From: a virus
IMG/VR virus record: IMGVR_UViG_3300048876_000002
Coordinates: 1-63,226 of that record
Direction: 5' to 3' (one strand)
DNA length: 63,226 bases
Part shown: positions 18,176-55,438 of the stretch, piece after piece
Position numbering within the stretch: the first letter of the stretch is position 1
How the letters are laid out: every line of letters begins with the position of its first letter
The notes under the pieces: model-generated
Databases searched by the model: none
What the model saw: the letters and a program-made list of their open reading frames with translations, nothing else
Told to the model about the DNA's origin: nothing
Made by a program: the position numbers and the translations under genes

Positions 18176-18190
18176 GCACACGCAAGGACA

Positions 18191-18215: not shown

Positions 18216-18341
18216 AGTCCGCGCAGTTTTGTAGAAAGTTCTTGCAAAGTCCGTTCCCTTGTAGTAGCGTTTCTTCTGAAGCGTACTTACGGCCTCTTCA
18301 GGCATCCCCGCGCCATGCGGGTTAAAAGACATACACCCTAA

Positions 18342-20883: not shown

Positions 20884-20892
20884 GAGAATCTT

Positions 20893-25143: not shown

Positions 25144-25496
25144 GACTATCTGAACTTGATCCCAAAACATTCGTACCGCTAGGGCATAACCGGAAGGCCC
25201 TGCTAGTCGAGCGGATTGACTCCGCGCATGAGTTTCAACACATCATCATCCCGGAAGAGTGCAAAGGCGCTGCCCTGTCGTCTGGCTTGGAGCCTCCTGT
25301 TTTGAGTCACTACCTGCCAAAACGCTGTAAGGTGCTGGCGATTGGCCCGAACGTGCGCGGCGTTAAGCCGGGGGATGTTGTAAATGTGCCCGGGGCGGGG
25401 AACTGCTATGCCGACTACGAGGATGGCACGGGACCGGGAAGCCGTTTGCTGATCCGTGAAGGGGATATTGCGGGAGTGTATGAAGCAACTGCGTAA
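25140..25496 (+). CDS. GroES-like co-chaperonin homologue, 118 aa
   Basis: Pattern of Cpn10 proteins: RKALLVERIDSA near the start, a mobile-loop-like stretch (IIIPEECKGAAL), then CKVLAIGPNVRGVKPGDVVN and a terminal REGDIAGVYEA. T4 gp31 is a precedent for a phage protein that replaces GroES so GroEL can fold the large coat protein. Its place just before the portal and upstream of the coat gene fits that role. Similarity is moderate. GTG start overlaps the previous stop. Confidence 0.7.
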   Translation: MRLSELDPKTFVPLGHNRKALLVERIDSAHEFQHIIIPEECKGAALSSGLEPPVLSHYLPKRCKVLAIGPNVRGVKPGDVVNVPGAGNCYADYEDGTGPGSRLLIREGDIAGVYEATA

Positions 25497-29521: not shown

Positions 29522-30748
29522 GTGAACACACTTCTAACGCCACTGATGATCACGCAAGAAGCGATGATTGTGCTTGTGAATGAACTGAACACGGCGCGTC
29601 ACTTTGATCGCCAGTACGACGACCGCTTCGGAATTCCCGGAGCGAAAATCGGCAACATCATCAACCTCCGCAAACCGCCTCGCTACCTGACTTCTCTTGG
29701 GCAGGCATTGTCCATTGAGGACTCGACCGAAACCAGCGTACCCTTGGTGCTGACACAGCAGCGTCAGTTTGCAATGGCCTTCACGTCGCAGGAGTATGGA
29801 TTGCAGATTGACGATTTCTCCAAGCGGATCGTTCGGCCGGCAATTGAAACTCTGGCAAACATGGTGGATTACGACGCGAACGGGCAGTTTGTCAATCTGT
29901 ACAACGAGCTTGGCACGCCGGGAACGGTGCCAAACACTCGTTTGCTCTACCTGCAAGTAGCGCAGCGGTTGAATGAGGAAGCGGCTCCATTCAAAGACCG
30001 GGTTTGCATTATGACTCCGGCGATGAACACGCTTCTCGTAGATGCTCAGGCTGGACTGTTCCAGGCGTCGGACAAAATCCGCGAGCAGTACAACACTGGA
30101 ATGCAGGGCATGGGCCTCGGATTCTCGTTCAAAATGGACCAGAACGCTCGCAATCAGGTGGTTGGGAAGCAGGGCGGAACTCCGGTAGTGAACGGATCAA
30201 ACCAAACTGGCAACTCAATCATTACGAACGGCTGGAGCAACAGCACTCAAGTATTGAATGCTGGGGATGTCATCTCCATTGGGACTCTGACGGCTGGCTC
30301 GCTGGCCGTGAACCCGCAGAGCCGTCAATCCACGGGAGCGTTGCGGCAGTTTGTCGTGACCGCTAACGTAACCTCAGATGGTTCCGGTAACGCCACGATC
30401 CCGATTTCCGGGCCTTCCGGCTTCGGTATTGTGACGGCTGGGCCATTCCAGACCGTAACCGTGGCACCTTTAACGGGCTGGGCTATCAATGTGCAGGGGG
30501 CTGCGAATACCAGTTCACTGCGCGGCATGGCCTTCGTGGATGATGTTACCTTCGCAATGGGCTGCGCTGATCTGCCGATCTGGCCAAACCAGGTCATCGG
30601 AGAGCGTGCTTCCAGCAAGGAACTCGGCATCAGCATCCGAATTCAACAGGCGTATGACATCTTCGAGGATCGAGCACCGATTCGCGGGGATTTCCTCTAT
30701 GGCTTCGTCACCAAATATCCTGAGACGGGTGTTCGCATAGCGAATTAG
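29522..30748 (+). CDS. Major coat protein, P22 gp5-like, 408 aa
   Basis: Builds the icosahedral shell (HK97 fold). GTG 29522. N-terminal NTLLTPLMITQEAMIVLVNE and ARHFDRQYDDRFG match the P22-type coat N-arm region, followed by the EDSTETSVPLVLTQQRQFAM segment. An insertion around 230-300 is Gly/Ser/Thr-rich, like a surface I-domain. Length is near P22 gp5 (430). Confidence 0.9.
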   Translation: MNTLLTPLMITQEAMIVLVNELNTARHFDRQYDDRFGIPGAKIGNIINLRKPPRYLTSLGQALSIEDSTETSVPLVLTQQRQFAMAFTSQEYGLQIDDFSKRIVRPAIETLANMVDYDANGQFVNLYNELGTPGTVPNTRLLYLQVAQRLNEEAAPFKDRVCIMTPAMNTLLVDAQAGLFQASDKIREQYNTGMQGMGLGFSFKMDQNARNQVVGKQGGTPVVNGSNQTGNSIITNGWSNSTQVLNAGDVISIGTLTAGSLAVNPQSRQSTGALRQFVVTANVTSDGSGNATIPISGPSGFGIVTAGPFQTVTVAPLTGWAINVQGAANTSSLRGMAFVDDVTFAMGCADLPIWPNQVIGERASSKELGISIRIQQAYDIFEDRAPIRGDFLYGFVTKYPETGVRIAN

Positions 30749-30776: not shown

Positions 30777-31568
30777 ATGTCAACGAAACTCACTTCTACC
30801 ACACTATCCGCTGCGGTTGCCGGAGGGACGAATGCGCCGAACTCGGTGATTCTTGCCTCCGTGACAGGAGTGGCGGCTCCTACGGCTGGCGGCGGAATTC
30901 AAACCATGCTGCTGATTGACGGCGAATTAATGACTGTTCAATCGGTCAACACGGTATCGCTGGTCGCAACCGTTCAACGTGGGCAAGGAGGGACGAAAGT
31001 CGCTCCTCATGGCAATGGCGCAACTGTATGGCTTGCCGATCCCACGTTTTTCGCGCAGTACAACTATGGCGGCGTCGGAAAGTTAAGTGGGCGCTACCGC
31101 TTCTTCACGGCAGACGCGCTTCAGGCCAGCTTGACGGCCTTGGGTACTTCCACTGCTGATACTGCTGGGGGCATCTTCTTGGCAGATGTCAACGTTGATC
31201 GTCTGTTAGTTTCAACGGGTGCCGCTGTGCTGAACGGCGCTACCGTGGGAACTGACCTCAACGTTGTCCTGCTCTACGATGCCAGCGGCACGCTGATTGC
31301 AAACAGCAATGCCGTGGGCGCTGTGACGGCGGGTGCTTCCGCCTTCCAGCAGAGAGCATGGGTCAATCCAGTGATTTTGGTTCCGGGGCAATACTTCCTC
31401 GGCTACCAGACCAACGGAACGACCGACAACTTCCAGACCATCAAGACCGCGACATGGGTCAATGTGCTGGCAGGAACCTTGACCGGAACCTTCGGAACGT
31501 TCCCGAACCCGATCACTTTGCCGGCCACGTTCACGGCTGACAAAGGGCCTTTCGGCTACATTTACTAG
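30777..31568 (+). CDS. Probable head decoration/structural protein, 263 aa
   Basis: ATG 30777 follows AGGAG, 28 bases after the coat stop. Ala/Gly/Thr-rich and strand-rich; an early VTGVAAPTAGGGIQTMLLID and late PVILVPGQYFLGYQTNG suggest a beta-sandwich. Position and composition point to a virion protein. A hairpin terminator follows. Confidence 0.72.
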   Translation: MSTKLTSTTLSAAVAGGTNAPNSVILASVTGVAAPTAGGGIQTMLLIDGELMTVQSVNTVSLVATVQRGQGGTKVAPHGNGATVWLADPTFFAQYNYGGVGKLSGRYRFFTADALQASLTALGTSTADTAGGIFLADVNVDRLLVSTGAAVLNGATVGTDLNVVLLYDASGTLIANSNAVGAVTAGASAFQQRAWVNPVILVPGQYFLGYQTNGTTDNFQTIKTATWVNVLAGTLTGTFGTFPNPITLPATFTADKGPFGYIY

Positions 31569-32081: not shown

Positions 32082-32855
32082 GTGCCTGTCCCTCCCGTAA
32101 CTCCCCCGACGCCGGGGATGAGCGTGTCTGGCCTAGACATCATCAAGGGGGCCATGCGGGCAGTCAACATCCTCAGTGCGGGGAGAAATCCAACTCCAGA
32201 CGAGTTGGCGGATTACCTCGCCATCTTGAATCAGTTTTTGGATTCCTGCAATGCGGAACGATTGATGATTTTCACGGTCAATCGACTTGGGCCATTCAAT
32301 CTCATACCGGGACAACAGGCTTATACAGTGGGAAGTGGTGGAGTTATCAACATCCCGCGCCCTCCGCGTATCGAGAGCATCTCGGTACTGTGGTTGGGGA
32401 ATCCAGTCCAGCCATCCGAGATATTCATGGATCCGGTGGACGAACAGGGATGGGGCGCAATCCCGGTCAAAAACATCGGAGCACCGTTGCCGCAAACAGT
32501 ATGGGATGACGGAGGTTTCCCATTACGAACACTAAGTTATTACCCATTCCCAACCGTCGCTATCGAGACTGTGTTGTATGCGTGGCAGGCGTTGTCGTTC
32601 TTCCCTGACCTTGTAACAAAGTTATCCTTCCCCCCTGGCTATCTTGAATTTATTCGCTGGAACCTTGCTCTCAGACTCGACAATGCTCAGATCACTCCTC
32701 AGGTGCAGGGCCTCGCCGCCGAGTCTAAGGCTAGGATTAAGAGCTTCAACGCCCCTACCATCACAGTGCAACCGGATATCGGAGGTTTGGTTGGCACCGG
32801 CGCGCAGTGGAATTGGCTCTCCGATACTCCGATTGTGCGAGGGCGAGGAATTTAA
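32082..32855 (+). CDS. P22 gp4-like neck (tail accessory) protein, 257 aa
   Basis: GTG 32082 directly follows the previous stop. The pattern GLDIIKGAMRAVNILSAGRN, then TPDELADYLAILNQFLDSC and GQQAYTVGSGGVINIPRP is typical of the gp4 family that seals the portal after packaging. Stop overlaps the next ATG (TAATG). Confidence 0.85.
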   Translation: MPVPPVTPPTPGMSVSGLDIIKGAMRAVNILSAGRNPTPDELADYLAILNQFLDSCNAERLMIFTVNRLGPFNLIPGQQAYTVGSGGVINIPRPPRIESISVLWLGNPVQPSEIFMDPVDEQGWGAIPVKNIGAPLPQTVWDDGGFPLRTLSYYPFPTVAIETVLYAWQALSFFPDLVTKLSFPPGYLEFIRWNLALRLDNAQITPQVQGLAAESKARIKSFNAPTITVQPDIGGLVGTGAQWNWLSDTPIVRGRGI

Positions 32856-34387
32856 TGGCTCGCATAAACTTCTGCGGCGGATCGTATCAGAGTGCCAGCC
32901 CTAACGCCGATTGCCAATACACCCAAAACTGGATGCCAGAAGCCATTGAAAGCGGGATGGGTGTTTCGGGCATGGTCATGTACCGCAGTCCCGGCCTCGC
33001 GGTATTTGCCACTTTGGACGGTATGACATCGGTTGTCATGGGCTATGAGTTCGGCACCGGAACTTCCGCGAGAGCATTTGTAGTCGCGCAGGACTTGCAG
33101 AGTCAGTACCTTTGGGAAGTGTTTGCGAACAAGACCGTGCTCCCTCGCGGCACCTTGGGACCAGCAAACGGTCTAGCATCAATGGTCGCAAACAATGCGA
33201 ATCAACTGCTGGTGTGTAGTTCAGGAACGCTCTGGATACTGTCGCTGACCACAAACATTCTGCTGCAACTTGACACGACCAGCGGAACTATCTTGATCGG
33301 ACCTGTGGCTAGCATACATTTCAGTGATGGGTTTTTCGTTGCCCATATTCAGAACTCTCAAACCTTGCAAGTATCGTCACTTTTGAACGGATCGGCGACA
33401 GGATGGAGTCCACTAAACTTCACAACTGTTTCAGTGTTCGCCGATCAGATCATTGCCATTCTGGTAGATCATCGGGAAGTATGGGCATGGGGGCCAAAGC
33501 AGACGATTCCTTACTTCGATGCGGGAGCGCCTATTTTCCCATACCTTCCAGCACCGGGCGGATTTATTGAGCAAGGCTTGATCGCCCCCGCAAGTCCGGT
33601 GAAACTCGATAATAGCGTCATGTGGCTAGGCGGAGATGATCGAGGCTACGGAATAGCATGGCGGGCGAATGGCTACCTTCCGACGCGCATCAGTAATCAT
33701 GCCTTAGAAACCGAATGGCAGAGCTATCCGACCATCACGGATGCAATCGGGTTTTCCTTTCAGGACAGAGGGCACTCAATCGCTCAATGGTACTTCCCGA
33801 GTGGGGGGAAGACATTTCGCTACGATGTGGCGACGGGCCTTTGGACCAATGCGACTTATAACCAAAGTGGTTTACCAACAGCCCATTTGAGCCGCTGTCA
33901 CTGGATGGCCTTTGGGAAACATCTTGTCGGCGACCGGCAGAGTGGGACGGTATATGAGATGTCGCCAGCATTCCTCACCGATGCAGGAGTTCTGATTCAG
34001 CGCGTGCGACGTGGAGCAACTGTAGCGGCAGAGCAGGAATTCATGCACCTGAATAAATTTCAGGTGTATTTGGAGGCTGGGTTAGGGCCGGAACCTCCGC
34101 TTCTGGACTCTAAACGCAATCCCCGCGATCCAGAGATGTACTTCCGCGACAGCAGGGATGGGGGGCATAGTTGGAGCGATCCGGTAACGATGGACTGTGG
34201 GCAGGCGGGAGACTTTCAGAAGATCGCCGAAGTTAGACGGTTGGGCCGAGCGCGAAGCTGGGTTCCTGAAATTAGCACCACAGACCCGGTTGATTGGAAA
34301 ATTATTGACGGCTACCTTGAGGCTCCGGGGGCTGACTTTGCTCCTCATCAGCAACGGCTTGTGAAGAAATTCGCACAGATGGCATGA
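32855..34387 (+). CDS. P22 gp10-like DNA-stabilisation/neck protein, 510 aa
   Basis: ATG 32855 overlaps the previous stop. The start MARINFCGGSYQSASPNADC, then QNWMPEAIESGMGVSGMVMY is characteristic of packaged-DNA stabilisation protein gp10, which plugs the neck and connects the tail. Strand-rich repeats follow (beta-propeller-like). Length is near P22 gp10 (472). An in-frame ATG at 32807 lies inside the previous gene and has no ribosome site. Confidence 0.88.
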   Translation: MARINFCGGSYQSASPNADCQYTQNWMPEAIESGMGVSGMVMYRSPGLAVFATLDGMTSVVMGYEFGTGTSARAFVVAQDLQSQYLWEVFANKTVLPRGTLGPANGLASMVANNANQLLVCSSGTLWILSLTTNILLQLDTTSGTILIGPVASIHFSDGFFVAHIQNSQTLQVSSLLNGSATGWSPLNFTTVSVFADQIIAILVDHREVWAWGPKQTIPYFDAGAPIFPYLPAPGGFIEQGLIAPASPVKLDNSVMWLGGDDRGYGIAWRANGYLPTRISNHALETEWQSYPTITDAIGFSFQDRGHSIAQWYFPSGGKTFRYDVATGLWTNATYNQSGLPTAHLSRCHWMAFGKHLVGDRQSGTVYEMSPAFLTDAGVLIQRVRRGATVAAEQEFMHLNKFQVYLEAGLGPEPPLLDSKRNPRDPEMYFRDSRDGGHSWSDPVTMDCGQAGDFQKIAEVRRLGRARSWVPEISTTDPVDWKIIDGYLEAPGADFAPHQQRLVKKFAQMA

Positions 34388-34638
34388 GTTCCATCGCTCA
34401 AACATTCGCAGGCTTGCAACGAACTCCTCTTCTGGCAGAAGACGGCCAGAGCGTTGCATGGCAGTGGCAGCAGGGATTTAATAAGCTGTCGCAAGCGGTC
34501 GCCGCCCCAGCATCTTCCGGCAATGTTCCAACTTCCTCCTCTTCGCCGGGAACGTTTGGGCAGATCGCTACTGATGGAATATATGTTTACGTTTATGGCC
34601 TTACAGGTTGGGGGCGAGCAGCCCTGAGTGCCTTCTGA
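34384..34638 (+). CDS. Small tail-region protein, 84 aa
   Basis: ATG 34384 overlaps the preceding stop (ATGA). Ser/Pro hinge then FGQIATDGIYVYVYGLTGWG, a strand pattern like short virion adaptors. Unknown. Confidence 0.68.
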   Translation: MSSIAQTFAGLQRTPLLAEDGQSVAWQWQQGFNKLSQAVAAPASSGNVPTSSSSPGTFGQIATDGIYVYVYGLTGWGRAALSAF

Positions 34639-39140: not shown

Positions 39141-40400
39141 ATGAAAAAACTTCCCTTATTGATTCTAGCATTCTGCTGCCTCTGCGGAGCGCAGATAAAT
39201 TATCCAATGATGCCCATGCCGCGCCAGCAGTTCACGAATAACGGCGCACCGCTCTCTGGCGGATTCCTTTATACGTGGGCGGCAGGAACAAGCACGCCAC
39301 TCGCCACTTACCACATCGACACACTAGGAAGTCTCACAGCCAATACCAACCCGGTAATCTTAGACGTGAACGGTTCGGCTGAAGTCCGACTACTTCCGCA
39401 AGCCTACAAGATGCAGTTGACCGATTCCAATAACGTGCAAATCTGGCAGATTGACCAGATTCAAGACTTCGGCCAACTAGCCCTCGCGTCATCCGTCCTC
39501 CTAAATCCTGCGTTCGCGAACCTGCAAACTATCGCCGGACCATTGGCCTTTACGACTCTCTCGCTGAATAGTGGAACCCCCCTGACAACGACAAACCAGA
39601 GCGGCACAGGTAGTTTGTGTCTTGTCACAAATTGCGCGTTGGTAACGCCGTCACTAAATGGGGTGAACATTGCCAACAGCCCAGGAACCTATCAGAATTT
39701 TGCAAACTCAGTTTCGCCGGGGACGATCCTTAATGATTTGGCTAATTTGGTAGCACCGGGCAACGCGGGAGTAAAAACCGCGCCAGCGGGAACGACTGGC
39801 GGAATTATGGGGATTGTGAGCGCGGGAGCTGGGACGACGGGCGTAGCTACAGTACAGGAATCCGGGCAATCGTTTTGCAACTTCGACGGGGCTGCAACTA
39901 CTGGCGATTATGTGCAAATGAGCAGCTCGGTTGCGGGAGACTGCACGGACGCTGGCGCAAACTATCCGACCTCCGGGCAGGTGATTGGAAGAGTTGAGCA
40001 GACTTCCGGTTCTCCGGCGCTTTTGGGACTGACTCTGTTTGGGCCGGAAATACAGGTTCCTACAACACTCGGCCTTGCCGCCATCACATCATGTGCAACA
40101 GGGCTTGGGGCCGGTTCTAGTCCCGCACTTACTTGCAGCAGCGCAAAAGACGGTGGCGGGTATATCTCGTTAACTACAGGCAGCAGCCCTAGCACTAATT
40201 CTCAAGTATGGATTATCTCTTTCGGCGCAACGCATACCGGGCACAACTGCTCGATCTCTCCAGCAAATGCTGCCGCAGTTAGTTCGGGCGTATTTATAGG
40301 CAGCAATAGCGTTACCCCGACCTTCTATATAGATTCTGGGGCAAGCGCCCTCACTGGAGCGACATTATATGCGTGGCAGTATACCTGTAATTTTTACTGA
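39141..40400 (+). CDS. Tail-fibre-like protein with signal peptide, 419 aa
   Basis: The first residues MKKLPLLILAFCCLCGAQ form a signal peptide. It is followed by a head-binding-type domain seen in podovirus tail fibres: PRQQFTNNGAPLSGGFLYTW, then AGTSTPLATYHID, NPVILDVNGSAEVRL and a YKMQLTDS...IWQIDQI segment (to about residue 110). The rest is Gly/Ser/Thr-rich strand structure. In-frame ATGs at 39063, 39114 and 39132 would bury the signal peptide internally. A virion adaptor with an export signal is unexpected. Confidence 0.78.
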   Translation: MKKLPLLILAFCCLCGAQINYPMMPMPRQQFTNNGAPLSGGFLYTWAAGTSTPLATYHIDTLGSLTANTNPVILDVNGSAEVRLLPQAYKMQLTDSNNVQIWQIDQIQDFGQLALASSVLLNPAFANLQTIAGPLAFTTLSLNSGTPLTTTNQSGTGSLCLVTNCALVTPSLNGVNIANSPGTYQNFANSVSPGTILNDLANLVAPGNAGVKTAPAGTTGGIMGIVSAGAGTTGVATVQESGQSFCNFDGAATTGDYVQMSSSVAGDCTDAGANYPTSGQVIGRVEQTSGSPALLGLTLFGPEIQVPTTLGLAAITSCATGLGAGSSPALTCSSAKDGGGYISLTTGSSPSTNSQVWIISFGATHTGHNCSISPANAAAVSSGVFIGSNSVTPTFYIDSGASALTGATLYAWQYTCNFY

Positions 40401-40417
40401 TCAAGAAAGGATTCACC

Positions 40418-42457
40418 ATGCTTAGGAAGTTACTTATCATTCTAATCCTTTCTTCGCCAGCATTTTCCCAACTGAGTTCCACGGGAAACATCACAGCCTC
40501 GGGCACGACTTGCGCTACGACGAACGCCTGCATTGTGCTCACGCTGTTTAATAGTCCGACACTCTCGACCACGGCTGCAACAATCACGGTCTCAGGCACA
40601 TATTCTGGAACGCTGCAATTCGAGATTAGTGCGGACGGCATCAACTTCTCCGCTATTTCAGGTATTAACGGCGCGAGTACGGCAAGTTCTACTACGTCCA
40701 CAGGAACGTGGACCTTCGGGATTCCAGCCCAGAATGTTCTTCGTGTAAGGGCATCTGCATTTTCATCGGGAACGGCTACGATTCTCATTCAAGCATCTGC
40801 TGGGCAGACTCCAACGGCGGCTCAAGTTCTAGCTCTCTTTGGCGGGCCTGGGACCAGTTCGCAATACCTCGCTGCAAATGGAACGATTCAGACGGCTGCT
40901 GGCGGCGCTGGAACGGTGACCACTACTGGCTCTCCTGCCTCTCCCAACCTTGCCGCGTTCTCTGGTGCTACCTCGATTACCAATGCCACGGCGCATAACG
41001 TCTCATCCCCGCTTAATTGTCCGGCAGCCTCGGCTTCCGGCACAGCCTACACTTGCACCACCACTCCCACCTTCGTTCCTGCCGATGGCGATGTGATCCT
41101 GTTCCAGGCCGACGTGGCGAACACAGGCGCGGCCACTCTCGTGGTAAATAGTCAGTCCGGAACTCCTGCGATAAAAAAGCAAGGCGGGGGCACGGCGCTT
41201 GTAGCCAACGATCTTCTAGTAGGCCAAGATACGCTACTGGAGTTCGACGGCACTAACTGGCAGATGCAGGGGCAAACGGGAAATGCGGCTAGTGGGACTG
41301 GTTTTACTGTTTCCGGTAGCACAGCATTATTTGGAACCTCTCCGACCGGGGGAACATTTAATCTGTACCTTGGCACCGGCACCACACAAGGAGTCACTAC
41401 CGCCACAGGTACGAACAACATTTGCGTGAATGCCTCGAACTTGGAATGCTATTACTCTCTCACTAGCGGGTCTACTAACATCGCCATCGGGCAATCGTCC
41501 TTATTCAGTTTGACTCAAGGATCTTTTAATGTGGCAATCGGGAACGACTTAGGTGGCGTTACCACTGGCACAAAGAATACGGCTGTGGGGAACTCGGCGC
41601 AGTCTGGTGGGTTGAATGTAAGCCAGGTAACCGCAGTCGGATGGGGAGCCCTTCAAAACAATCAAACCGTCGAGGCGTCGGCGTTCGGAAACCAATCACA
41701 GCAAGCCAATACCACTGGATTGAATTCTTCCTTTGGGTCGCTCGCTCTGCTTAACAATACCGACGGAACCAACAACGACGTATTTGGCGAAGATACTATC
41801 CGAGACAACGTGCATGGAAGTCGTAACATTGCAATGGGCGCTCGCGCAGGACAAAGTATAAACGGTGGTAATGATAATACTGCACTTGGATTTACCGCTG
41901 GTTATACCGCAACCACGGCGAACGCCAACGTGACTGGAAACTTCAACACTTGGGTAGGGTCGGGCACAGGACCGGGGAGCGCGACGCAGTTTAGCAACCA
42001 AACGGTCATTGGTGCTCTTGCTTTAGGGACTTGTAGTAACTGTGTAGTGCTTGGAAGAACAACAGCAATCGTGGCTGGCGGTGACACGACATTCGCGGCA
42101 CGGTTTTCAGTGGATAGTTCCACAACTCTTGTGGCGGGAGATTTCGTGCTCAGTGCTGAGTGGGGCACCACGGCCTCAATCGTCATCACGGACACTACAT
42201 CGAAAGACTCGGCGGCTGTAGTTACCGTCACATCCGCCGGAACTGGCCAAGCTGCGAATCCGACCATCGCGTTTACCTTCCACGATGGAACTTGGACAAA
42301 CACTCCCGCCTGCATTGCCATCCAGACAGGCGGAACAGGAATCTTTGGCGACAGCACCACGACGGCTAGATCTGCCACCGCCCAAACTTGGCAGTGGAAT
42401 GCAACCCCGACTGCCGCCGCAAATTACCAGTTTACAATTCACTGTACAGGGACATAA
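40418..42457 (+). CDS. Adhesin-like protein with signal peptide and YadA-type head repeats, 679 aa
   Basis: ATG 40418 follows AAAGGA. Signal peptide MLRKLLIILILSSPAFSQ. Residues about 345-560 repeat NIAIGQSSL, NVAIGNDLG, NTAVGNSAQ, NIAMGARAG, NTALGFTAG, the beta-roll repeats of trimeric autotransporter heads, also used in phage fibres. The N-terminal half is Ser/Thr-rich beta structure. Probably a trimeric receptor-binding fibre or an exported adhesin. Confidence 0.8.
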   Translation: MLRKLLIILILSSPAFSQLSSTGNITASGTTCATTNACIVLTLFNSPTLSTTAATITVSGTYSGTLQFEISADGINFSAISGINGASTASSTTSTGTWTFGIPAQNVLRVRASAFSSGTATILIQASAGQTPTAAQVLALFGGPGTSSQYLAANGTIQTAAGGAGTVTTTGSPASPNLAAFSGATSITNATAHNVSSPLNCPAASASGTAYTCTTTPTFVPADGDVILFQADVANTGAATLVVNSQSGTPAIKKQGGGTALVANDLLVGQDTLLEFDGTNWQMQGQTGNAASGTGFTVSGSTALFGTSPTGGTFNLYLGTGTTQGVTTATGTNNICVNASNLECYYSLTSGSTNIAIGQSSLFSLTQGSFNVAIGNDLGGVTTGTKNTAVGNSAQSGGLNVSQVTAVGWGALQNNQTVEASAFGNQSQQANTTGLNSSFGSLALLNNTDGTNNDVFGEDTIRDNVHGSRNIAMGARAGQSINGGNDNTALGFTAGYTATTANANVTGNFNTWVGSGTGPGSATQFSNQTVIGALALGTCSNCVVLGRTTAIVAGGDTTFAARFSVDSSTTLVAGDFVLSAEWGTTASIVITDTTSKDSAAVVTVTSAGTGQAANPTIAFTFHDGTWTNTPACIAIQTGGTGIFGDSTTTARSATAQTWQWNATPTAAANYQFTIHCTGT

Positions 42458-42458
42458 T

Positions 42459-42920
42459 ATGAAACGATTGCTATGCGTACTTTTGATCCTCGCGGGTTCG
42501 CTGTCAGCCCAAACCTCTGACGGTCCGACGGGACGTATCCACCCACTCACGTTAACAGTAGCGGGCAACACGGGCGCACATGGCGTTAGTACTGTATTCA
42601 CTGCCCCCGCAACGCACCTGTACCGCGTCGAGTGGAGTATGCGGACGACGGTCGTAGCCACGTCCGGCACAATGTCGGCACTTACTCTCGCGTGGAACAA
42701 TGGGAATGCGATAAGCCGGAACGCTCTTCTCGTCGGACCCCAGTTGCTCGACCTTGCGAGCTTGGTTAGCACGGGGCTTACCTCAGCAGAGATTACAGGC
42801 GTACAAGAGATGTACGTCGCATCGGGCACAAGCGTTACTTGGGCGACGACAGTCGGCACTGCGATTGTTGGATCGCCACAATACACCGTGGAATTCCGCG
42901 TATTCGATGCGGGGAGTTAG
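42459..42920 (+). CDS. Secreted beta protein, 153 aa
   Basis: ATG 42459 lies 1 base after the previous stop. Signal peptide MKRLLCVLLILAGSLSAQ, then a beta-sandwich-like domain (HPLTLTVAGNTGAHGVSTVF, LYRVEWSMRTTVVATSGT). Probably a small partner of the adjacent fibres. Confidence 0.72.
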   Translation: MKRLLCVLLILAGSLSAQTSDGPTGRIHPLTLTVAGNTGAHGVSTVFTAPATHLYRVEWSMRTTVVATSGTMSALTLAWNNGNAISRNALLVGPQLLDLASLVSTGLTSAEITGVQEMYVASGTSVTWATTVGTAIVGSPQYTVEFRVFDAGS

Positions 42921-45900
42921 ATGATGCGCCGACTGCTTATCCTCGCTATACTACTTCTGTTGGGAGTAGCCTTTTCCTTTGGCACAACTGGTGTACGCTT
43001 TGACCTCGGAGGGCCTATTGCCGGGGTTTCAACGATCAGCGCGCAGCCATCCAATAATGGGCAGAATGCCGACTACTTGATCGTGCTTGCCCCCGTATCA
43101 CTAAACTGGTGCGCCTATCCAGCTAACAGCATTCAGGGTGTGCCCTGCACGAACTACAGCCCTACGTATACCGATTTGCTCCTCGGCACGCCCTGCCCGA
43201 GCACGCAGCCAATCGTGCTTCAGCAGACGAATGTTTGCGTCAGTTTCAGTGATGCGCTGGGCAATCTGGGAGTAAACGCCGCAGCGGGAACCTATACCTA
43301 TACTCTCACTTCCGGTTCGACTACATATGGCCCCTACACGGTCACTCTGGGAGGCAGCAGCGCAGGTGGGGGTGGGATAACCATCACAACCGTAGCTGGG
43401 CTTGCATTAGTGCCCGTCAAGACAAATGGTACCCTGGCCACGGTTACCAATGGTGCAAATGCTTCCGACTGCACGGTAGGCGGCGGCGTGTTTTTGGTAA
43501 ACTGTCAATATAATGGTTCTATATGGTCGCCGCTTACGAGTGCTACTGGGGGAAACGGCTGCACGTACACACAAAGTACGTCAACGGTAACCTGCCCAAA
43601 CGTTGTTGTAACTGGCTTTTGGAATACCACTACTCCATTAACTTGGGCGACTACTTTCCCTACTAATCCTTGCACGACGGCATCTTTCGACTCGCCTTAC
43701 CTTGTTACCGGACTGGTATCGGGATACTCCGGCATCACCATGAACAACGACGGCAATTTCTGCCTGTTTGTGAATGGCGTATATCAAGGTAATTTAGGGG
43801 CGGGCGTTACCCTTACCGGAACGAATCCTTTTACGAGCGTTAATTCTTTCTCGGGCACGACCACTCTTGCAAGCGCCAACGGCGTCTTGAATCCGGCAAT
43901 GTGCAGCACGGCAACTCCTCCGAGTTGGTGTTCTCCGGGATTGGAAATCGGCGGGTGGACGAACGCAGCGATTGCAGCGTTGCCGGGTCAGTGCGGGAAA
44001 ATCTTCATCCCCTCTGGAACGTATTCACAGAACACAACGATCCTGAAACCTCGTTGCGTGAGCATGAAAGGAGCAGGACGGCTCTCTACGGTCCTTAACT
44101 GGACTCCGACTGCCGGGAACGCTTTGGTAATCGAGGACAGCACGGGCACAAGTATTTACCCAGAAGGGGAAGTTTCTGATCTCACGTTAAATGGTTCTGG
44201 AACAAGCCACACAGCAGACGGAGTTTACCTTGGCGGCGATCCGAATGGTACTACCGTTAAAGTCTATGTAAACGGAGTCGCCACAGGAACCGTGATTCCC
44301 ACCACAGCCTATGGCGACCACAACAATTTCAACCGTGTTTCCATTCAGGCATTCAACAATGGTGTGCGCTGGGGGAATAACGCTTGGTCGCACAGTTTCA
44401 ATCAAAGCCTAATTGCGGGGAACAATGTCGGAGTGAACTCGAACTCCGGGGGGACTGTGACTGGGTCCGGTGAGGCTGAATCCTTCATCGCAACCAGAGT
44501 GCAGAACAACCTGACCAGTGGATTCAACTTGGAAGATTATGCTGATTTTTATATCGACTCGGGAAGTTGCGATTTCAACCCTGTGTGTTTGGTGATCACC
44601 GGAGCGGTTCAAGTCCGCGTGCAGAAGGAGCATTTCGAGCAAAACTCCGGGAACATGATTACCATTGCGTCATTCCCGGATTACCGGTTGCATCTCACCG
44701 TGGCCAATAGTTCAATGGTATACGATCAGGCAAGCGGAACACAGGCGCAGGCCATCGCAGTAACTACTGGCTCAGGAAACTCAGTATCCGTTGATCTTGA
44801 CGATGTGTGGGCATTTGTACTGAATGCAGGCACATTTACTGTTACCAATTTAGTGAATTGGTCAGCCCCGGTTACTGGCAGTGCGAACATTCTACGAATC
44901 GTAGAACCGCATCTGGTAAGTTCATTTCCTGGCGGTGCATCCAATCTTCCGTGTTCATCGTTTGCGCCCACCAGTGGATGCACGATTGACGATCCTCAAC
45001 ATGGCACGCTTAGTACGACTGGGCTGGCAGCAACCACAATTAACGGCCTGACGGCACCCAGCGGCTCTTCGGGAGCTTACCTCGCTGAACTTAGCGGCAC
45101 ATTTACCAACAACTATCCCACTATATTCAATGGCACACTTGTGCTGAATGCGGCGACAACACTGTTTAAGTCTGCGGCTTACACGCCGAGTACGGCAGGA
45201 CTGTTTGGCTACGACAGCACAAATAATCGCTTTGTTGGAGGCAACGGCACAAACACTAGTTTCCTGAACTGGATTGCTTCCACGGCCTCAATCACCACTG
45301 GTCATTGCGCTCAGTTTACAGGCACAAAGGGGCAACTTGTAGATGCAGGAGCGGCTTGCGGTACAGGAGGCGGATCGAGCGGCAACGGACCTTCCGGCTC
45401 AACTGGAGTGGGGATTGTCACCACCACAACGAATGGCTACGCGCCACTCTACGGAAACTACAGTGCAAGCGTGGCGGTTGCCAACGTTGGTAATATCGCT
45501 CAGTCGGTCGGGGCTGTAGCGAATGCCATCTCGCAACTATCTGTAACTTTAGGGACCGCTGTAGCGAGTGGAAAGACCTTGACGGTGACGCTCTATGATG
45601 TCACGGCGGCAAGTGCTCAGGCGGTTACTTGCACGGTTGCGGCTTTAGCGACGACCTGCACAGATGTAACGCATTCCTACAGTGCCCCGGCAGGAGATAC
45701 GCTGGCATGGCAGGTTGTCGGCACTGCCTCACTTACTACTAACCTTGCCATCGGCGCACAGGTCGGATCGGCATCTACGTTCTCTGGCAATACCCCCGTA
45801 GCAGTCTCACAAGGCGGAGGCGGAACCACACAGAATGACCTTTTATCTTACGACGCCAACGGCAACGCGGTGGACTCCGGAAATTGCTTGGAACACTATT

Positions 45901-46382
45901 CGCCCATTCCAGGAAGTAGCGATCAATTAACCGGGGCCGGGACATTTGCGACCACGATTGCATTGACTGCCGGGGTGCCGGGATGCCTTGTTGCAGGAAG
46001 CGTACTGACAATCCTCGGCCACGGTACAGGCAATGCTGCGGGCACAGAGAATCTTGCTCTACAAATTGGGGCAGGAGGTAATAGCACAATTTGTCCCGCT
46101 CCCACGGCACCCGTTGTGGTCCCAACGTCCGCATTTTATTGGGACGCAATTTGCTATATCCAAATCAACACCACTGGCAACCCAGGAACCGCATTTGCCT
46201 GGGGTGCATGGCAAGTCTCAAACGTCAATGGTGGCTCTATTGCGGCGAAGACCTTTGCGGTGACCGGAGTTTCGACTGTGGCGTTCAACACTGTTACCCC
46301 AGGCACAGTAAATGTGCAGGCTTCGACCATGACCGCAACCAACATCAATCTCCTATCCTTGGATACAAAGGTGATCCATTAA
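42921..46382 (+). CDS. Large pectate-lyase-fold depolymerase-like protein with signal peptide, 1153 aa
   Basis: ATG 42921 follows the previous stop directly. Signal-like start MMRRLLILAILLLLGVAFSF. Residues about 340-620 show the right-handed beta-helix pattern of pectate lyase/tailspike enzymes (GKIFIPSGTYSQNTTILKP, VSMKGAGRLSTVLNW, repeated DGVYLGG and NNGVRWG turns). Such proteins cleave surface polysaccharide during adsorption. The remainder is Gly/Thr/Ser-rich strands. No catalytic residue can be assigned from sequence alone. Confidence 0.8.
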   Translation: MMRRLLILAILLLLGVAFSFGTTGVRFDLGGPIAGVSTISAQPSNNGQNADYLIVLAPVSLNWCAYPANSIQGVPCTNYSPTYTDLLLGTPCPSTQPIVLQQTNVCVSFSDALGNLGVNAAAGTYTYTLTSGSTTYGPYTVTLGGSSAGGGGITITTVAGLALVPVKTNGTLATVTNGANASDCTVGGGVFLVNCQYNGSIWSPLTSATGGNGCTYTQSTSTVTCPNVVVTGFWNTTTPLTWATTFPTNPCTTASFDSPYLVTGLVSGYSGITMNNDGNFCLFVNGVYQGNLGAGVTLTGTNPFTSVNSFSGTTTLASANGVLNPAMCSTATPPSWCSPGLEIGGWTNAAIAALPGQCGKIFIPSGTYSQNTTILKPRCVSMKGAGRLSTVLNWTPTAGNALVIEDSTGTSIYPEGEVSDLTLNGSGTSHTADGVYLGGDPNGTTVKVYVNGVATGTVIPTTAYGDHNNFNRVSIQAFNNGVRWGNNAWSHSFNQSLIAGNNVGVNSNSGGTVTGSGEAESFIATRVQNNLTSGFNLEDYADFYIDSGSCDFNPVCLVITGAVQVRVQKEHFEQNSGNMITIASFPDYRLHLTVANSSMVYDQASGTQAQAIAVTTGSGNSVSVDLDDVWAFVLNAGTFTVTNLVNWSAPVTGSANILRIVEPHLVSSFPGGASNLPCSSFAPTSGCTIDDPQHGTLSTTGLAATTINGLTAPSGSSGAYLAELSGTFTNNYPTIFNGTLVLNAATTLFKSAAYTPSTAGLFGYDSTNNRFVGGNGTNTSFLNWIASTASITTGHCAQFTGTKGQLVDAGAACGTGGGSSGNGPSGSTGVGIVTTTTNGYAPLYGNYSASVAVANVGNIAQSVGAVANAISQLSVTLGTAVASGKTLTVTLYDVTAASAQAVTCTVAALATTCTDVTHSYSAPAGDTLAWQVVGTASLTTNLAIGAQVGSASTFSGNTPVAVSQGGGGTTQNDLLSYDANGNAVDSGNCLEHYSPIPGSSDQLTGAGTFATTIALTAGVPGCLVAGSVLTILGHGTGNAAGTENLALQIGAGGNSTICPAPTAPVVVPTSAFYWDAICYIQINTTGNPGTAFAWGAWQVSNVNGGSIAAKTFAVTGVSTVAFNTVTPGTVNVQASTMTATNINLLSLDTKVIH

Positions 46383-46781
46383 ATGATCAAACGACTCTTG
46401 TTGCTGTATATGCTGTTCGCCAGCCTTTCGGCGTTTGCTCAAGCAAGCACTCGTCCGGTCGTTTTAACTTGGACTCCTCCATCCACGGCTGGATTCACTG
46501 GGTATGAGGTATATCGCTGCACTGTGCCCACGGGAGCCACGTCCTGCACCCCAACTATAGGCACACCGCTCAACTCGACTATTCTCACAGGGGCGACATA
46601 TACGGACAACCCGACAACGCAAACCGCTTACGGCTATACCGTCGTCGCAGTCTACCCGCCGTGTTCGCTGACAAGTTCATTGACTACGGCCTGCGGGGCG
46701 GGCGGAGCGGTCACGCTGACATTTGTCCCTGTACCGCCCCAAGGAGTCGGAGCTACGAATCTGGTGATTGTGGTTCAGTAG
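46383..46781 (+). CDS. Secreted fibronectin type III-like protein, 132 aa
   Basis: ATG 46383 abuts the previous stop. Signal peptide MIKRLLLLYMLFASLSAFAQ, then the FN3 pattern VVLTWTPPSTAGFTGYEVYR ... TAYGYTVVAVYP. FN3 domains are common in exported carbohydrate enzymes and phage tails. Confidence 0.78.
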   Translation: MIKRLLLLYMLFASLSAFAQASTRPVVLTWTPPSTAGFTGYEVYRCTVPTGATSCTPTIGTPLNSTILTGATYTDNPTTQTAYGYTVVAVYPPCSLTSSLTTACGAGGAVTLTFVPVPPQGVGATNLVIVVQ

Positions 46782-46784
46782 CCT

Positions 46785-49700
46785 ATGTGGAAACTGCTCC
46801 CCATCTTACTGTTGGCCGTAACAGCGACCGCGCAGACGACCTCTAACATTGATGACCTCGGCCTCGGCACGCCCGGATGGCAAGCGCCCTGCTACTTTCC
46901 TTCATGCAACCCCGGTGGAGTAGGAACGCCGACGCTGGGTTCAGTGCATCAGACATTCGTCAACGCCTCGCCGAGCCTTGATGGCAACTCTATGTTGATG
47001 ACCGAGGTGGGGACCAATTATTCAAACGTGATGTACCACTACACCTTCGGGGCGAATAATTCAGCCACGGCGTTTACGGGGAGTTACGCCGTTTATATCC
47101 AGACCAGCCTAGCCCCTTGGCAAGTCTTCGGGATGGATATGTATCAGTACATTCCAGGCGTGCGCCTTATGTTTGGAAGCCAATGTGCCGTCGCAGGCAA
47201 CACTGCTGGATTATGGAGTTTCTTTAACCAGCAGCCAGCCCCGGACGGGGTATGGAATGTAAGCACCGTTCCTTGCCCACTCACGGCAGCAACTTGGTGG
47301 AATATTAGCATGACCGTGCATCGCGTGCCCGGTGATACATCTTGTCCCGGTGGACTTCCCGCTGAGCACTACGACTCGCTCACGCAATACACCGTTCCCT
47401 TTGCACCCGTCACCTACACGCTCAACCTCAGCTATTGCTCGGAAACAACAACCTTCGCCAACGATACCGGGATGCAGTTCGATGTCAGCGGCAGCGCGAC
47501 GGGCGGAACGAATACAGCTTTCGTCGATCAACAAAACTATCAAGCGAGCGTCACTACCGTGGCCCCAGCATCGTCTTGCACTCCCGCTGGGGGGACGTTC
47601 GGTTTGCCGCAAACCGTGCCTTGCACAAACGCAGCCCCGGTGCAGTGCTACAACTTCACGGGCGCGCCTAAGACGAATGGAACGACAGGTTGCCTCGCAG
47701 GGGCGCACTATACGGCCCCCATCACCGCAGGAAACTCCACGCTTTACATTGTTGGCGGAGGAACAGGTTACACAGACGGCCCCGTAACGCCTTATGGGTT
47801 CACCATTACAGGGCTGGCTGTTCCCGGAGGGCGAATCAATTCCGTTCAAGCCCCGGACCCCGCAGGAACGAATTTCGCGGCCTATAGTTCTGTTCTGGCA
47901 CAGAAGAACCCTTTACTGACAGGGCAGACGCTTCTGGTTGGCGTTGGCAACAGCGGTGCCAGTATTCTGTATCTCGACAGTGAATCTGGGACGGGAGTTT
48001 GCACCCCAAACAATACTGCTGGATTCACTTTGCTCGACGGTATCATCGCGTCTTATCCAACTAACGTACTCTTGGTTCCTGCGACTGAAGGTGGGACGAA
48101 TATAAACACTCCCGCGTGCGTGTTCTCTCAGGCGCAGGCAAATGCAGTAGCGTTGTCTTGGACTTCCGGAATGACCATGCTCCCAAGTTGGTATTTGAAT
48201 ATCTCAGGGACTTACTGGCAGATGCAGGCCGGGTGCTATGGAGGTTCTGGATATTCCAATGCGTGTCAACTAGGAACCGTAGAGCCAGTAGCCTGCTACG
48301 GCACTGCTGGGCCGTGTACAGACGGGACAGCCGTGATGACCAAGATTGGCGCAAACGCCCCTCTGCAAGATGTCTCTTGTTCCGCCAATTATAAATGTGG
48401 ACCCGCGTCCGCAAACTGTTATACAGCAAACGGCAGTGCTCCAATTGTCATCAACTCCGGTGCTTTTGCCCCATGCTCATCCACGGAAGTAATTCAGGGG
48501 GAACCGATTCCGTGGGAACTTCCGATTGTTAATTACTACGAGCAGCAGATCGCTGCGTTCATAAGTCACTACAATGGCAACGTGAATATGGGATACATGC
48601 GCCCTGGTTCTCCAGCAGGCGGAGAACTGTCCCCGCTTGGGATTTCTGCTACTACTCCAAGCAACGCGGTCTGGCCATTTTCAGGAAGTTCTAGCGCCCA
48701 GAAACGTGCAACATTCCTTAGCTGGGTGAGCGTTCTCGATGCCTACGTTATGGCGCAGACTCCCACCTTTCCGATCTTCACTGATCTAAACAATGCAGGG
48801 AACCCTTCAGACGCTAATTATGCGGATCAAGAAGCCTTACTGGCTTACCAAGACTGCTTTCAGGGCTTAGGGACCAACGGTTATCAAGTGAAGGACGTTC
48901 TCGCCCTAGAGGGTGTGAATGCTGGATGCAATCTTACGACCGGACTGGTTGGCGGGACGACTACCTGCGGCTCTGGTGACTTCCCGTGGCTTTTCCTGAC
49001 CTATCCAAAGAATTCCTGCGGTCAGCATATGTACCATTCCTTGCAGACGTTGACCGGAATGACTCCGCTGTATTGCAACGCTGCGACGGGTACTTGTCCG
49101 GGAATCACTGGACCTCCGGGGCCACTCCCTACGGGAACGAACTGCACATTAGGGTTCCCCGGCCTCATTTCTTTTCTTGGAACTCTGGCGAATGTCGGCA
49201 TCGGTGCACTGAATCAGAAGATCATCGTCGATAATCTTGAACTTTATGTCAACGCTCCGAGCAACAATACAAACGCCGGTACTGGGTGTGCTGGCACGCC
49301 TGCATGGCCTGCCAGTGACATACTGCTCGCTTTGTACCCAAATTACTCGGGAACCGTTGGAGCGCAGACTCAGTACCTATCGGCCCCGGCTGGCTGTACT
49401 GCCCCAGCGGCAGGGTGTGTTAAGCCAGTTTTGAGCTATGATGCGGCTTTTGCTCAGTATCTTGGGATTGGGACAGCCCTTGGCGGAACGGCCCCTACAG
49501 GACTGACGGTGTTCGGCAGCGGTTCCGTTCCATACGGCCCTCCGTTGTATAGTGTCTCGACAATTTCCACGGCTAATCCAGGCACTATCGCTCCGATCTT
49601 CATTGCAACAGCCCCGACTTCCACGACCTGTTTAGGGATGTGCCAGAATTCCGTAGCCTACGATACTACGCTTAATCCTGTTGGCACTGACATCATCTCT

Positions 49701-51062
49701 CGGGTGACGGACGGTACCAGTTTCGGGAGCGGTGCATCAATGGGAAACCTTACGTTCTCGGGCGGAGACAACGACATTATGGGATCGGTGAACGAAACTT
49801 ATCTCGGGATGAACTCTGGGCAGGTTTATATCTTCCACATGAGAGTCGCCTTGGATGGGAGTTATCAGGTTGTCAATACTGGCATTCCTGCGATTCACGT
49901 AGCGGGGCCGTTCGGCTTCAGCAAGGTTACCGATACGCGTTTCTATTACCTGGTCAGCGATACCCAGCTTTGGCAGGGCGACATCACCAGCGACACGACA
50001 TGGACACAGACGAAACTCTTTGATCTGACCTCAGGGAACGGGACGCAAACGCAATGCCCAGGTATAAATTGGACAACGTTTGGGACAGCAGGATCAGCAA
50101 GTATTATGGGGATTTCTCAAACGGATCAGCGCTTCGGTTGGAGTGTTGGTCACGGCGGCCAGGGTACGGCAGATTGGGCGTTCGTCTGGGATAAGACGCT
50201 CGGATGCTCAAGCATAAACAATGCCACCGGGCAATATTGGGCTTTCACCACTTCTGGTACTTCCTCAACACCCGCCTCCGGCACGGTCGTATCGACCGGA
50301 TGCTATGGCTCGAATGGCAGCGCAACTCCGCCGAAGGGCATCCACGATTCACAGATGTCGGGAGACGGGAATTACATGCTCTTTACCCTGCAGAATCCGC
50401 CGTGGACTGGGGGAGTGTGTGCAGGATCGACAATTGCTAACCAACAAACCGAGTGGCAGATTGGGACATCTGGTTCGCAGTGGAGCTATGGAGCGAACAC
50501 GATAGGGGTAGGCGGGGCGAACCTCGGCTCCCATAACAGCGTCGGCGTAACCAATGTTGTGGCTCCCTTTAATAACGGTCCACCAACGAACAACGGGCCG
50601 AACGTCCGCACTATGGCGAACGTCGCGTCATTTTCAGGATTCCAAGCAACCGGGATCATTCCGACGAATGTCATCATTGCGACCGATGAGCACTGTTCTT
50701 GGCCGCATCCTCTGAACGACGACAGTTACCCTTGGGTGTGCGCCAGCGACCTGACCTCAAGCGCTAACGGTGGTTCCCTGACACCCAACTACATGCAAAA
50801 TGTGATTTATGCGTGGTTCCCAAACAACCCGCTACCTCTTGGCCTTTCACCGAGACTGTTTGCCCACACGTTCAGTTGTGGTACGACACCTTCGACGTGC
50901 GCCGGTGGAGTAGGGGATTTCACTTTCGGCTCGCAGCAAGCTATCGGCTACACGACGGCAAAGGGCAACTATTTCTGTTGGGCGAGTACCCATTTGCAAT
51001 CTCTGGGCTCCGACAATCTAGGACATCCAAGAGCGGATGGATTTTGCGTAAGGCTGCAATAA
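46785..51062 (+). CDS. Giant secreted Cys-rich protein, possible carbohydrate-active, 1425 aa
   Basis: ATG 46785, 3 bases after the previous stop. Signal peptide MWKLLPILLLAVTATAQ. The N-terminal third is a beta-rich, Cys-containing domain. A central part (about 560-700) includes INYYEQQIAAFISHYNGNVN, resembling glycoside-hydrolase barrels; the last 450 residues contain repeated strand motifs and could form a propeller. About 60 Cys indicate an oxidising destination. Largest protein of the phage; I recognise no specific family. Confidence 0.72.
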   Translation: MWKLLPILLLAVTATAQTTSNIDDLGLGTPGWQAPCYFPSCNPGGVGTPTLGSVHQTFVNASPSLDGNSMLMTEVGTNYSNVMYHYTFGANNSATAFTGSYAVYIQTSLAPWQVFGMDMYQYIPGVRLMFGSQCAVAGNTAGLWSFFNQQPAPDGVWNVSTVPCPLTAATWWNISMTVHRVPGDTSCPGGLPAEHYDSLTQYTVPFAPVTYTLNLSYCSETTTFANDTGMQFDVSGSATGGTNTAFVDQQNYQASVTTVAPASSCTPAGGTFGLPQTVPCTNAAPVQCYNFTGAPKTNGTTGCLAGAHYTAPITAGNSTLYIVGGGTGYTDGPVTPYGFTITGLAVPGGRINSVQAPDPAGTNFAAYSSVLAQKNPLLTGQTLLVGVGNSGASILYLDSESGTGVCTPNNTAGFTLLDGIIASYPTNVLLVPATEGGTNINTPACVFSQAQANAVALSWTSGMTMLPSWYLNISGTYWQMQAGCYGGSGYSNACQLGTVEPVACYGTAGPCTDGTAVMTKIGANAPLQDVSCSANYKCGPASANCYTANGSAPIVINSGAFAPCSSTEVIQGEPIPWELPIVNYYEQQIAAFISHYNGNVNMGYMRPGSPAGGELSPLGISATTPSNAVWPFSGSSSAQKRATFLSWVSVLDAYVMAQTPTFPIFTDLNNAGNPSDANYADQEALLAYQDCFQGLGTNGYQVKDVLALEGVNAGCNLTTGLVGGTTTCGSGDFPWLFLTYPKNSCGQHMYHSLQTLTGMTPLYCNAATGTCPGITGPPGPLPTGTNCTLGFPGLISFLGTLANVGIGALNQKIIVDNLELYVNAPSNNTNAGTGCAGTPAWPASDILLALYPNYSGTVGAQTQYLSAPAGCTAPAAGCVKPVLSYDAAFAQYLGIGTALGGTAPTGLTVFGSGSVPYGPPLYSVSTISTANPGTIAPIFIATAPTSTTCLGMCQNSVAYDTTLNPVGTDIISRVTDGTSFGSGASMGNLTFSGGDNDIMGSVNETYLGMNSGQVYIFHMRVALDGSYQVVNTGIPAIHVAGPFGFSKVTDTRFYYLVSDTQLWQGDITSDTTWTQTKLFDLTSGNGTQTQCPGINWTTFGTAGSASIMGISQTDQRFGWSVGHGGQGTADWAFVWDKTLGCSSINNATGQYWAFTTSGTSSTPASGTVVSTGCYGSNGSATPPKGIHDSQMSGDGNYMLFTLQNPPWTGGVCAGSTIANQQTEWQIGTSGSQWSYGANTIGVGGANLGSHNSVGVTNVVAPFNNGPPTNNGPNVRTMANVASFSGFQATGIIPTNVIIATDEHCSWPHPLNDDSYPWVCASDLTSSANGGSLTPNYMQNVIYAWFPNNPLPLGLSPRLFAHTFSCGTTPSTCAGGVGDFTFGSQQAIGYTTAKGNYFCWASTHLQSLGSDNLGHPRADGFCVRLQ

Positions 51063-54704: not shown

Positions 54705-54902
54705 ATGTCGAGCAAGTTCCGTGCCCGTGGACTGGAGATGCACGCAGGCGTAATCGTTTACGATCCGCGCACGCCGGAGCGCCAGCGATACTATCTGAAG
54801 CGGCATGTGGATGCGGTGCATGACGGCAGCATGGTAGCATCGTGCCAAGCTTGCAAGGAACTGAGTAAGCCGAACGAGACTTTGAGGAGGAATTCAAAAT
54901 GA
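54705..54902 (+). CDS. Small hypothetical protein, 65 aa
   Basis: ATG 54705. HVDAVHDGSMVASCQACKELSK shows a single CxxC with nearby His. Overlaps the lipoprotein start by 4 nt. Unknown. Confidence 0.62.
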   Translation: MSSKFRARGLEMHAGVIVYDPRTPERQRYYLKRHVDAVHDGSMVASCQACKELSKPNETLRRNSK

Positions 54903-55438
54903 AGCGGAAGTTAACGATGGTATGGCAGCACTTGGCGATTGCGACGGTACTTTTCGCCATGATCGTCACTACGGCCTGCACCAACAGCGCATGGCCCCTG
55001 ATTATCGCCAGCGCGCAGGCTGCGGCTCAGGTCACCAGCATCTTCTACCCGGCGGTTGGACAGTGGAGCGGCCTTGCGGTCGGCCTATTGCAACAAGTGG
55101 AAGCAGCGTCCACGGCGTACACGTCTACTCCGACCGCGACCACGGAGCAGAAGTTGATCAACGCCATCAACTCCATCGAAATCCAATTGCCGCAGGATTT
55201 GGCGAACCTCGGAATCCCTGTGATTGACCAGCAGAAGGTGCTTGCGGTCCAGACCATCATCCTCGACTTCGTGGAAGGTCTGGCAGGGCAACTCCCCGTG
55301 ACGAAAAGCATGGTCGCTACGGCTCGGGTATCCCGGCAGGCTGGCCCTGCGCCGGCGCCGATGACGAAAGCTCAGGTGAAGACACGCTGGGCTGCGATGT
55401 GTAGCGGGGATCAGCACTGCCTTAGCTTGGTGAAGTAA
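54899..55438 (+). CDS. Putative lipoprotein, 179 aa
   Basis: ATG 54899 follows GAGGAGG. N-terminus MKRKLTMVWQHLAIATVLFAMI then VTTAC, a lipobox-like cleavage site. The mature part is helical and ends with a Cys pair (MCSGDQHC). Could be an outer-membrane lysis partner (spanin-like) or exclusion protein. A duplicated 18-bp sequence starts at its last codons. Confidence 0.7.
   Translation: MKRKLTMVWQHLAIATVLFAMIVTTACTNSAWPLIIASAQAAAQVTSIFYPAVGQWSGLAVGLLQQVEAASTAYTSTPTATTEQKLINAINSIEIQLPQDLANLGIPVIDQQKVLAVQTIILDFVEGLAGQLPVTKSMVATARVSRQAGPAPAPMTKAQVKTRWAAMCSGDQHCLSLVK

Follow-up and report, generated by a model that had tools for sequence, protein, structure and literature searches.

Predicted Sec leaders on the tail fibre genes of a P22-like podovirus suggest that its virion may be completed outside the cytoplasm

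By the textbook account, tailed phages are put together in the cytoplasm. In phage P22, addition of the tailspike is the last assembly step, and purified tailspike completes tailspike-less heads in vitro. Filamentous phages assemble from membrane-inserted coat proteins, and their virion proteins pass through the host inner-membrane insertion or Sec pathway. In that respect they resemble the case made here, but they have no head, cause no lysis, are extruded through the membrane and are built of unrelated proteins. In P22, receptor binding falls to six tailspike trimers that flank the tail (PMC3741392). Phage endolysins are exported via a signal peptide or as the SAR type (PMC6116005) and likewise use the host Sec system during lytic growth, but they are lysis enzymes and not virion parts. 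Porphyromonas phages encode secreted Q-rule proteins of obscure function that are thought to alter the host surface (PMC10367356); these have a Sec leader and Gln at position +1, as do most of the proteins described below, but are not tail fibres with a docking domain. The Q-rule itself, in which SPase I substrates have an N-terminal Gln or pyroglutamate, has been described as Bacteroidetes-specific (PMC5837995). The filamentous, endolysin and Porphyromonas cases are thus known already. A full-text search of the literature, covering open-licence papers, turned up no description of a tailed phage that exports its tail fibres.

The window, by which we mean the whole 63,226-base stretch of viral DNA analysed here (53.9% G+C), has a 127-base direct terminal repeat, and we therefore take the record to be a complete phage genome. 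Judged by its sequence it is a P22-like podovirus. PHROG matches place the virion genes in the P22 order of portal, scaffold, coat, gp10-like closure and ejection-type proteins (Table 1), the same genome type as in P22, Sf6 and Pam1. Two large genes, at 36459 and 38049, stand between the ejection-type gene and a block of six genes that we call P1 to P6. The block (39141-51062) had no nucleotide match in the phage collection, and no tail-fibre-like genes besides those in it were recognised in the window. The GNAT acetyltransferase gene within the virion module is also found in the virion modules of the relatives L016 and L017 and of the cultured phages Tunturi 1 and 2.

Table 1. Virion-module features of the window. 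Cys counts for P1 to P6 refer to the mature part. HBD, head-binding domain.
Feature	Coordinates	Strand	Description
P22-type portal protein	25456..27750	+	phrog_156, 5e-114
Scaffold	28473		PHROG match
Major coat protein	29522..30748	+	phrog_283, 1.9e-48
Post-coat virion-type protein	30777..31568	+	directly 3' of coat gene; leaderless, Cys-free in the window
gp10-like head closure protein (Hc3)	32807..34387	+	phrog_578, 3e-75; basis of phylogeny
GNAT acetyltransferase	34608-35063		within virion module; PHROG match
Minor coat	35060		PHROG match
Ejection-type protein	35644		PHROG match
P1, tail fibre/spike	39141..40400	+	leader in codons 1-17; P22/Pam1-type HBD; 8 Cys
P1 Sec leader	39141..39191	+	MKKLPLLILAFCCLCGA, then Q; predicted cleavage A17/Q18
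P1 HBD, from the mature N-terminus on	39192..39470	+	profile, AlphaFold, Foldseek
P2	40418..42457	+	17-aa leader MLRKLLIILILSSPAFS, then Q (S/Q); tail spike/virion structural repeats; 10 Cys
P3	42459..42920	+	17-aa leader MKRLLCVLLILAGSLSA, then Q (A/Q); 153 aa; 0 Cys
P4	42921..46382	+	~21-aa leader MMRRLLILAILLLLGVAFSFG, then T; no Gln at +1; 1153 aa; 26 Cys
P5	46383..46781	+	19-aa leader MIKRLLLLYMLFASLSAFA, then Q (A/Q); weak FN3 match; 4 Cys
P6	46785..51062	+	16-aa leader MWKLLPILLLAVTATA, then Q (A/Q); 1425 aa; 42 Cys

The initial annotation had described six consecutive tail-type genes, 0 to 17 bases apart, that begin with signal peptides mostly ending in A-Q or S-Q. The six ORFs and their spacing were confirmed (gaps of 17, 1, 0, 0 and 3 bases), and leaders are present on all six. 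Each follows the Sec/SPase I design, in which the n-region is basic, the core hydrophobic and the residue at -1 small. Gln comes next, at +1, in five of them, the exception being P4. Leaders were predicted with a von Heijne-type matrix in which positions +1 and +2 are not scored; in an OmpA control the predictor puts the cut at the known site. In a census of the 78 window ORFs of at least 80 amino acids it flagged five of the six tail genes. The remaining one, at 42459, was masked in the census by an overlapping ORF, and its leader is evident from its own start. Outside the tail block, the only flags in this census were on a lipoprotein-like gene at 54899 and a weak, spurious one on the gene at 30777. 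The lipoprotein-like gene (54899-55438, leader MKRKLTMVWQHLAIATVLFAMIVTTAC) lies 3' of the tail block and could encode a spanin or other envelope protein. The P4 homologue of the relative G001 has a leader of its own, MIKKLLLFIAVVCSCAYA followed by Q. The gene just 5' of the HBD fibre gene in G001 (L012:9346-9936) also has a leader, MAKKTIHIFAILALGCIALDVLPLFA.

A scan with the P1 sequence on its own gave no relatives. By tblastn, P1 residues 23-107 match the tail spikes or fibres of 33 phages, and a profile of P1 and its relatives matches PDB chain 7eeq, the Tailspike head-binding domain (E 1.7e-9). The AlphaFold model of P1 has a pLDDT of 85-96 at residues 31-110, and Foldseek aligns it with the HBDs of the Pam1, P22 and Sf6 tailspikes (E 3e-5 to 1e-3). 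The podovirus fibre head-binding domain claimed at the outset is thereby strongly confirmed in P1, which shares this domain with the three tailspikes by both profile and fold. The P22 and Pam1 tailspikes begin at the HBD and are made in the cytoplasm, whereas P1 has a 17-residue leader before it. The spike of the window differs further in being Cys-rich, with an even number of Cys, and in being accompanied by tandem fibre genes that all have leaders. Pfam and NCBIfam were nearly silent on the six tail proteins. P2 matches two PHROG families of tail spike or virion structural proteins (phrog_6002, 7.8e-10; phrog_4636, 3e-9), and P6 is the 1425-residue Cys-rich protein that had been described. 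An FN3 protein had also been proposed; the match exists in P5 but is weak (E 0.008) and under the Pfam cut-off. Searches of the domain and PHROG libraries gave no support for a pectate-lyase-like beta helix in P4. No match to a virion-docking domain was identified in most of the tail proteins P2 to P6. The idea that the six genes are host cargo was rejected, given that P1 has a virion-docking domain and occupies the tail position.

The HBD profile was run across all of the fetched loci. Among 114 distinct leaderless homologues, 112 have the initiator Met at -3 to +1 of the HBD start. A leader precedes the HBD in 30 distinct homologues, which belong to the gp10 clade of the window and to Acidobacteriota genomes. 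These leaders are unrelated or divergent in sequence and alike in design. All 30 have [AGSC]-Q at the junction between leader and HBD, and in 26 of them the Gln is at -1 of the HBD start, so that cleavage there would restore the N-terminus of the leaderless proteins. No locus was found to have both a leader-bearing and a leaderless HBD protein; the P1-type protein is the sole HBD protein found in each leader-bearing locus. Comparison of the sequences establishes that a predicted Sec/SPase I leader has been added before a P22-type HBD in one clade of Acidobacteriota podoviruses. The leaders are real and conserved, and the indirect evidence of the junction, the restored N-terminus and the Cys parity described below makes their cleavage very probable.

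The cysteine content of these proteins points the same way. The mature parts of P1 to P6 contain 90 Cys in 3,854 residues (2.34%), compared with 0.48% in the other 12 virion-module proteins of the window, and the six individual counts are all even (Table 1). The median Cys content is 2.05% in complete leader-bearing HBD proteins and 0.35% in leaderless ones (p = 9e-12). The number of Cys is even in 24 of 25 mature leader-bearing HBD proteins, and in only 11 of the 25 if the leader is counted; in the 13 cases in which the leader has an odd number of Cys, the mature part is even every time. Leaderless HBD homologues (n = 63) divide into 30 with even and 33 with odd counts. These p-values are inflated by relatedness; when one HBD protein was kept per 50%-identity cluster, the count was even in 18 of 19 (p = 4e-5). 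Other leader-bearing tail proteins of the clade have even counts in 21 of 23 cases. Both the enrichment and the even mature counts are as expected if every Cys is paired once the protein has been exported and its leader removed, and they indicate that the mature leader-bearing HBD proteins are cleaved and folded in an oxidising compartment. P3, which lacks Cys, and P4, which lacks Gln at +1, count against the explanation by export and assembly outside the cytoplasm, as do the searches for docking domains in P2 to P6, which were negative for most of these proteins.

These comparisons bear on two simpler explanations of the leaders. Wrongly chosen start codons or chance hydrophobic N-termini would leave the fibres as ordinary cytoplasmic proteins, and P1 does have ATGs at codons 23-26. 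These ATGs have no Shine-Dalgarno site. In five of the six tail genes there is no better in-frame ATG or GTG soon after the leader, and the GTG at codon 48 of P5, which has a partial Shine-Dalgarno sequence, is far beyond it. Moreover, leader, Gln at +1 and Cys pattern recur together in about 30 divergent homologues, in both protein families and in a cultured phage that is unrelated, and the leaderless homologues show none of this. True starts downstream of the signal segments, named initially as a result that would count against export, are contradicted by the conservation of the leaders in about 30 relatives, and we give this explanation a negligible probability. The second explanation, uncleaved membrane anchors with tails assembled at the inner membrane, has the hydrophobic N-termini and the analogy of filamentous phages in its favour, but would not account for the invariant small residue-Gln junction exactly where the leaderless homologues begin, nor for a Cys number that is even only without the leader. 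It is very improbable. Of the readings first offered, cleaved export is therefore strongly supported and the anchor reading disfavoured; chance leaders, wrong starts and uncleaved anchors were all rejected on the comparative data.

A phylogenetic tree of 138 gp10-like proteins, constructed by a quick method and with long branches present, required two changes of the leader label, versus a mean of 28 when labels were shuffled. The window falls in a clade of 32 rows (SH-aLRT 99), of which 31 are leader-bearing; two of the 31 (L294 and L295) were relabelled by eye, the automatic call having missed their leaders. The one exception, L242, has an HBD protein (17262-18270) with neither leader nor Cys, and its post-coat protein does have a leader. 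One gp10 relative (L016) sits in an Acidobacteria MAG contig, and two leader-bearing HBD genes occur in the Acidobacteriota genomes G247 and G287; the same genes are present in these two genomes and in the MAG contig. The HBD gene of G247 is on a contig of 6.4 Mb, flanked to either side by host genes, and three consecutive tail genes there are leader-bearing. This part of the chromosome (L201:14888-20000 and L202:1-5000) contains an ejection-type/tail cassette with the three leader genes. As inspection by eye of the 40 kb read showed no head genes, the cassette could be a remnant or could have been domesticated.

Predicted secreted proteins of the Acidobacteriota often have Gln at +1 themselves, namely 18 of 49 in G247 (L206-L225, L201-L202) and 6 of 22 in the MAG G006 (L101-L120). 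[AGS]Q occurs near the cut in 22 of 49, versus a background of about 5%; the E. coli control set for Gln at +1 was small (8 proteins). Gln at +1 is enriched in the predicted secreted proteins of Acidobacteriota, although far from universal, which suggests that a partial Q-rule exists outside the Bacteroidetes. Given how common the residue is in G247, the phage leaders look host-like. They resemble substrates of the Bacteroidetes Q-rule in having Gln at +1 after a small residue, but here they are carried by phages of Acidobacteriota, on proteins predicted to be virion fibres.

Leaders also occur in a second family, that of the post-coat protein, the gene for which always adjoins the coat gene. 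The family has 25 distinct leader-bearing members in the clade, with a median of 4 Cys; Gln stands at the junction in 23, and the Cys count is even in 24. Among the 21 homologues under the leader threshold the median is 2 Cys, and the number is even in 9 of the 15 with any Cys; the 21 include L296, whose leader was probably overlooked. After 50% clustering the parity signal in this family is modest (7 of 8 even). The leader was gained or lost several times (2-6 changes). The AlphaFold model is confident mainly in the N-terminal domain, whose fold matches are weak and are led by virion proteins, among them VP1 capsid and GP4 tail; a role in capsid decoration is therefore a guess from gene position. 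In many relatives the post-coat protein appears, by its leader and Cys pattern, to follow the same export route as the fibres.

We think it probable that the six proteins are virion tail fibres or spikes made as secretory precursors, and that the virion is completed outside the cytoplasm. Late in infection, the fibres would pass through the host Sec translocon and be cleaved, and in the periplasm they would acquire disulfides and become trimers. Assembly of heads, portals and tail hubs would meanwhile go on in the cytoplasm. Opening of the envelope at lysis would mix the two pools, and the HBD would dock on the tail hub of fibreless particles, thereby completing the virion outside the cytoplasm. 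In many relatives a second, coat-adjacent protein would take the same route. Export of the fibres is well supported; docking after export is what we infer. Since the only recognised docking fibre is predicted to be a secretory precursor and the heads are cytoplasmic, the two would meet at lysis. Docking at that stage is chemically plausible, because the P22 tailspike is added last and can be added in vitro.

The exported and cleaved proteins could instead act off the virion, whether as depolymerases in free form, as exclusion factors that block receptors or as adhesins on the surface of the infected cell. Such a role would fit the real export signals and the lack of a known docking domain in P2 to P6, and the Q-rule proteins of Porphyromonas phages (PMC10367356) would be a precedent. 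We consider it unlikely, as P1 keeps its conserved Pam1/P22-type docking domain and is of the type that supplies the only HBD protein found per leader-bearing locus, further genes of the tail-fibre kind were not recognised in the window, and a second virion-type family, beside the coat gene, has gained leaders. Of the two outcomes of export first put forward, completion of the tail after export is thus favoured over action outside, on the strength of the retained docking domain and the leaders of the second family. Less likely again is dual localisation, in which an inefficient or conditional leader would yield an exported pool and a cytoplasmic pool, the latter equipping virions in the ordinary way. 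The retained HBD function, and the Met near the HBD start in many P1 relatives, would be explained by it, but an internal Met near the HBD is absent in many others, the internal starts in the window are without good ribosome sites, and, to judge by the even mature Cys counts, the functional protein would be mostly in oxidised form.

Completion of the virion after export may have a counterpart in cultured phages. Tunturi 1 and Tunturi 2, podoviruses of 63 kb that infect the soil bacterium Tunturiibacter, have been isolated, purified and imaged (PMC11924767), and the main text of that paper does not mention export of tail proteins. Five of their tail genes have leaders, gp12, gp13, gp14, gp16 and gp17, ending respectively in SA/Q, FA/Q, NA/T, NA/Q and GA/Q. 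The proteins have 1.3-2.7% Cys, and the mature counts in Tunturi 2 are, in the same order, 20, 10, 20, 1 and 34. Tunturi 1 and 2 thus resemble the window as Acidobacteriota podoviruses with leader-bearing, Cys-rich tail genes, but their head genes and fibre sequences have no detectable relation to it; a scan with a neck protein of Tunturi 2 found no relatives. Tunturi 3, 4 and 5, cultured phages of the same host genus, have no leaders among the tail genes examined, which counts against the explanation and shows that the host does not force leaders.

A broader proposal can be made, for and against which the evidence seems to us evenly balanced. It is that the lineage finishes its virion exterior, comprising the fibres and in many members the coat-adjacent protein, outside the cytoplasm by means of Sec export, periplasmic oxidation, Gln/pyroglutamate N-termini and attachment at or after lysis, with Tunturi 1 and 2 independently alike. 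The parts are a variant of P22-type tails; the assembly route would be new if confirmed, a lineage with its only recognised receptor-binding proteins made as secretory precursors representing a category of its own. Adsorption proteins would be kept apart from the heads until lysis, disulfide-stabilised fibres would be suited to acidic soil, and free fibres could act on neighbouring cells. The similar tail-gene layout of the cultured Tunturi 1 and 2 makes the route directly testable on Tunturiibacter. Even Cys counts combined with Gln at +1 would also make it simple to screen other sequences for virion proteins that are extracytoplasmic.

Sec may not be the only pathway used by these phages. 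In the relative L021, a gene of the tail block (20709-21440) has a signal of the twin-arginine type at its start, MKINRRKFTGHLVGAAALLAGLAPTAKA, a hint that one tail protein may be exported by Tat.
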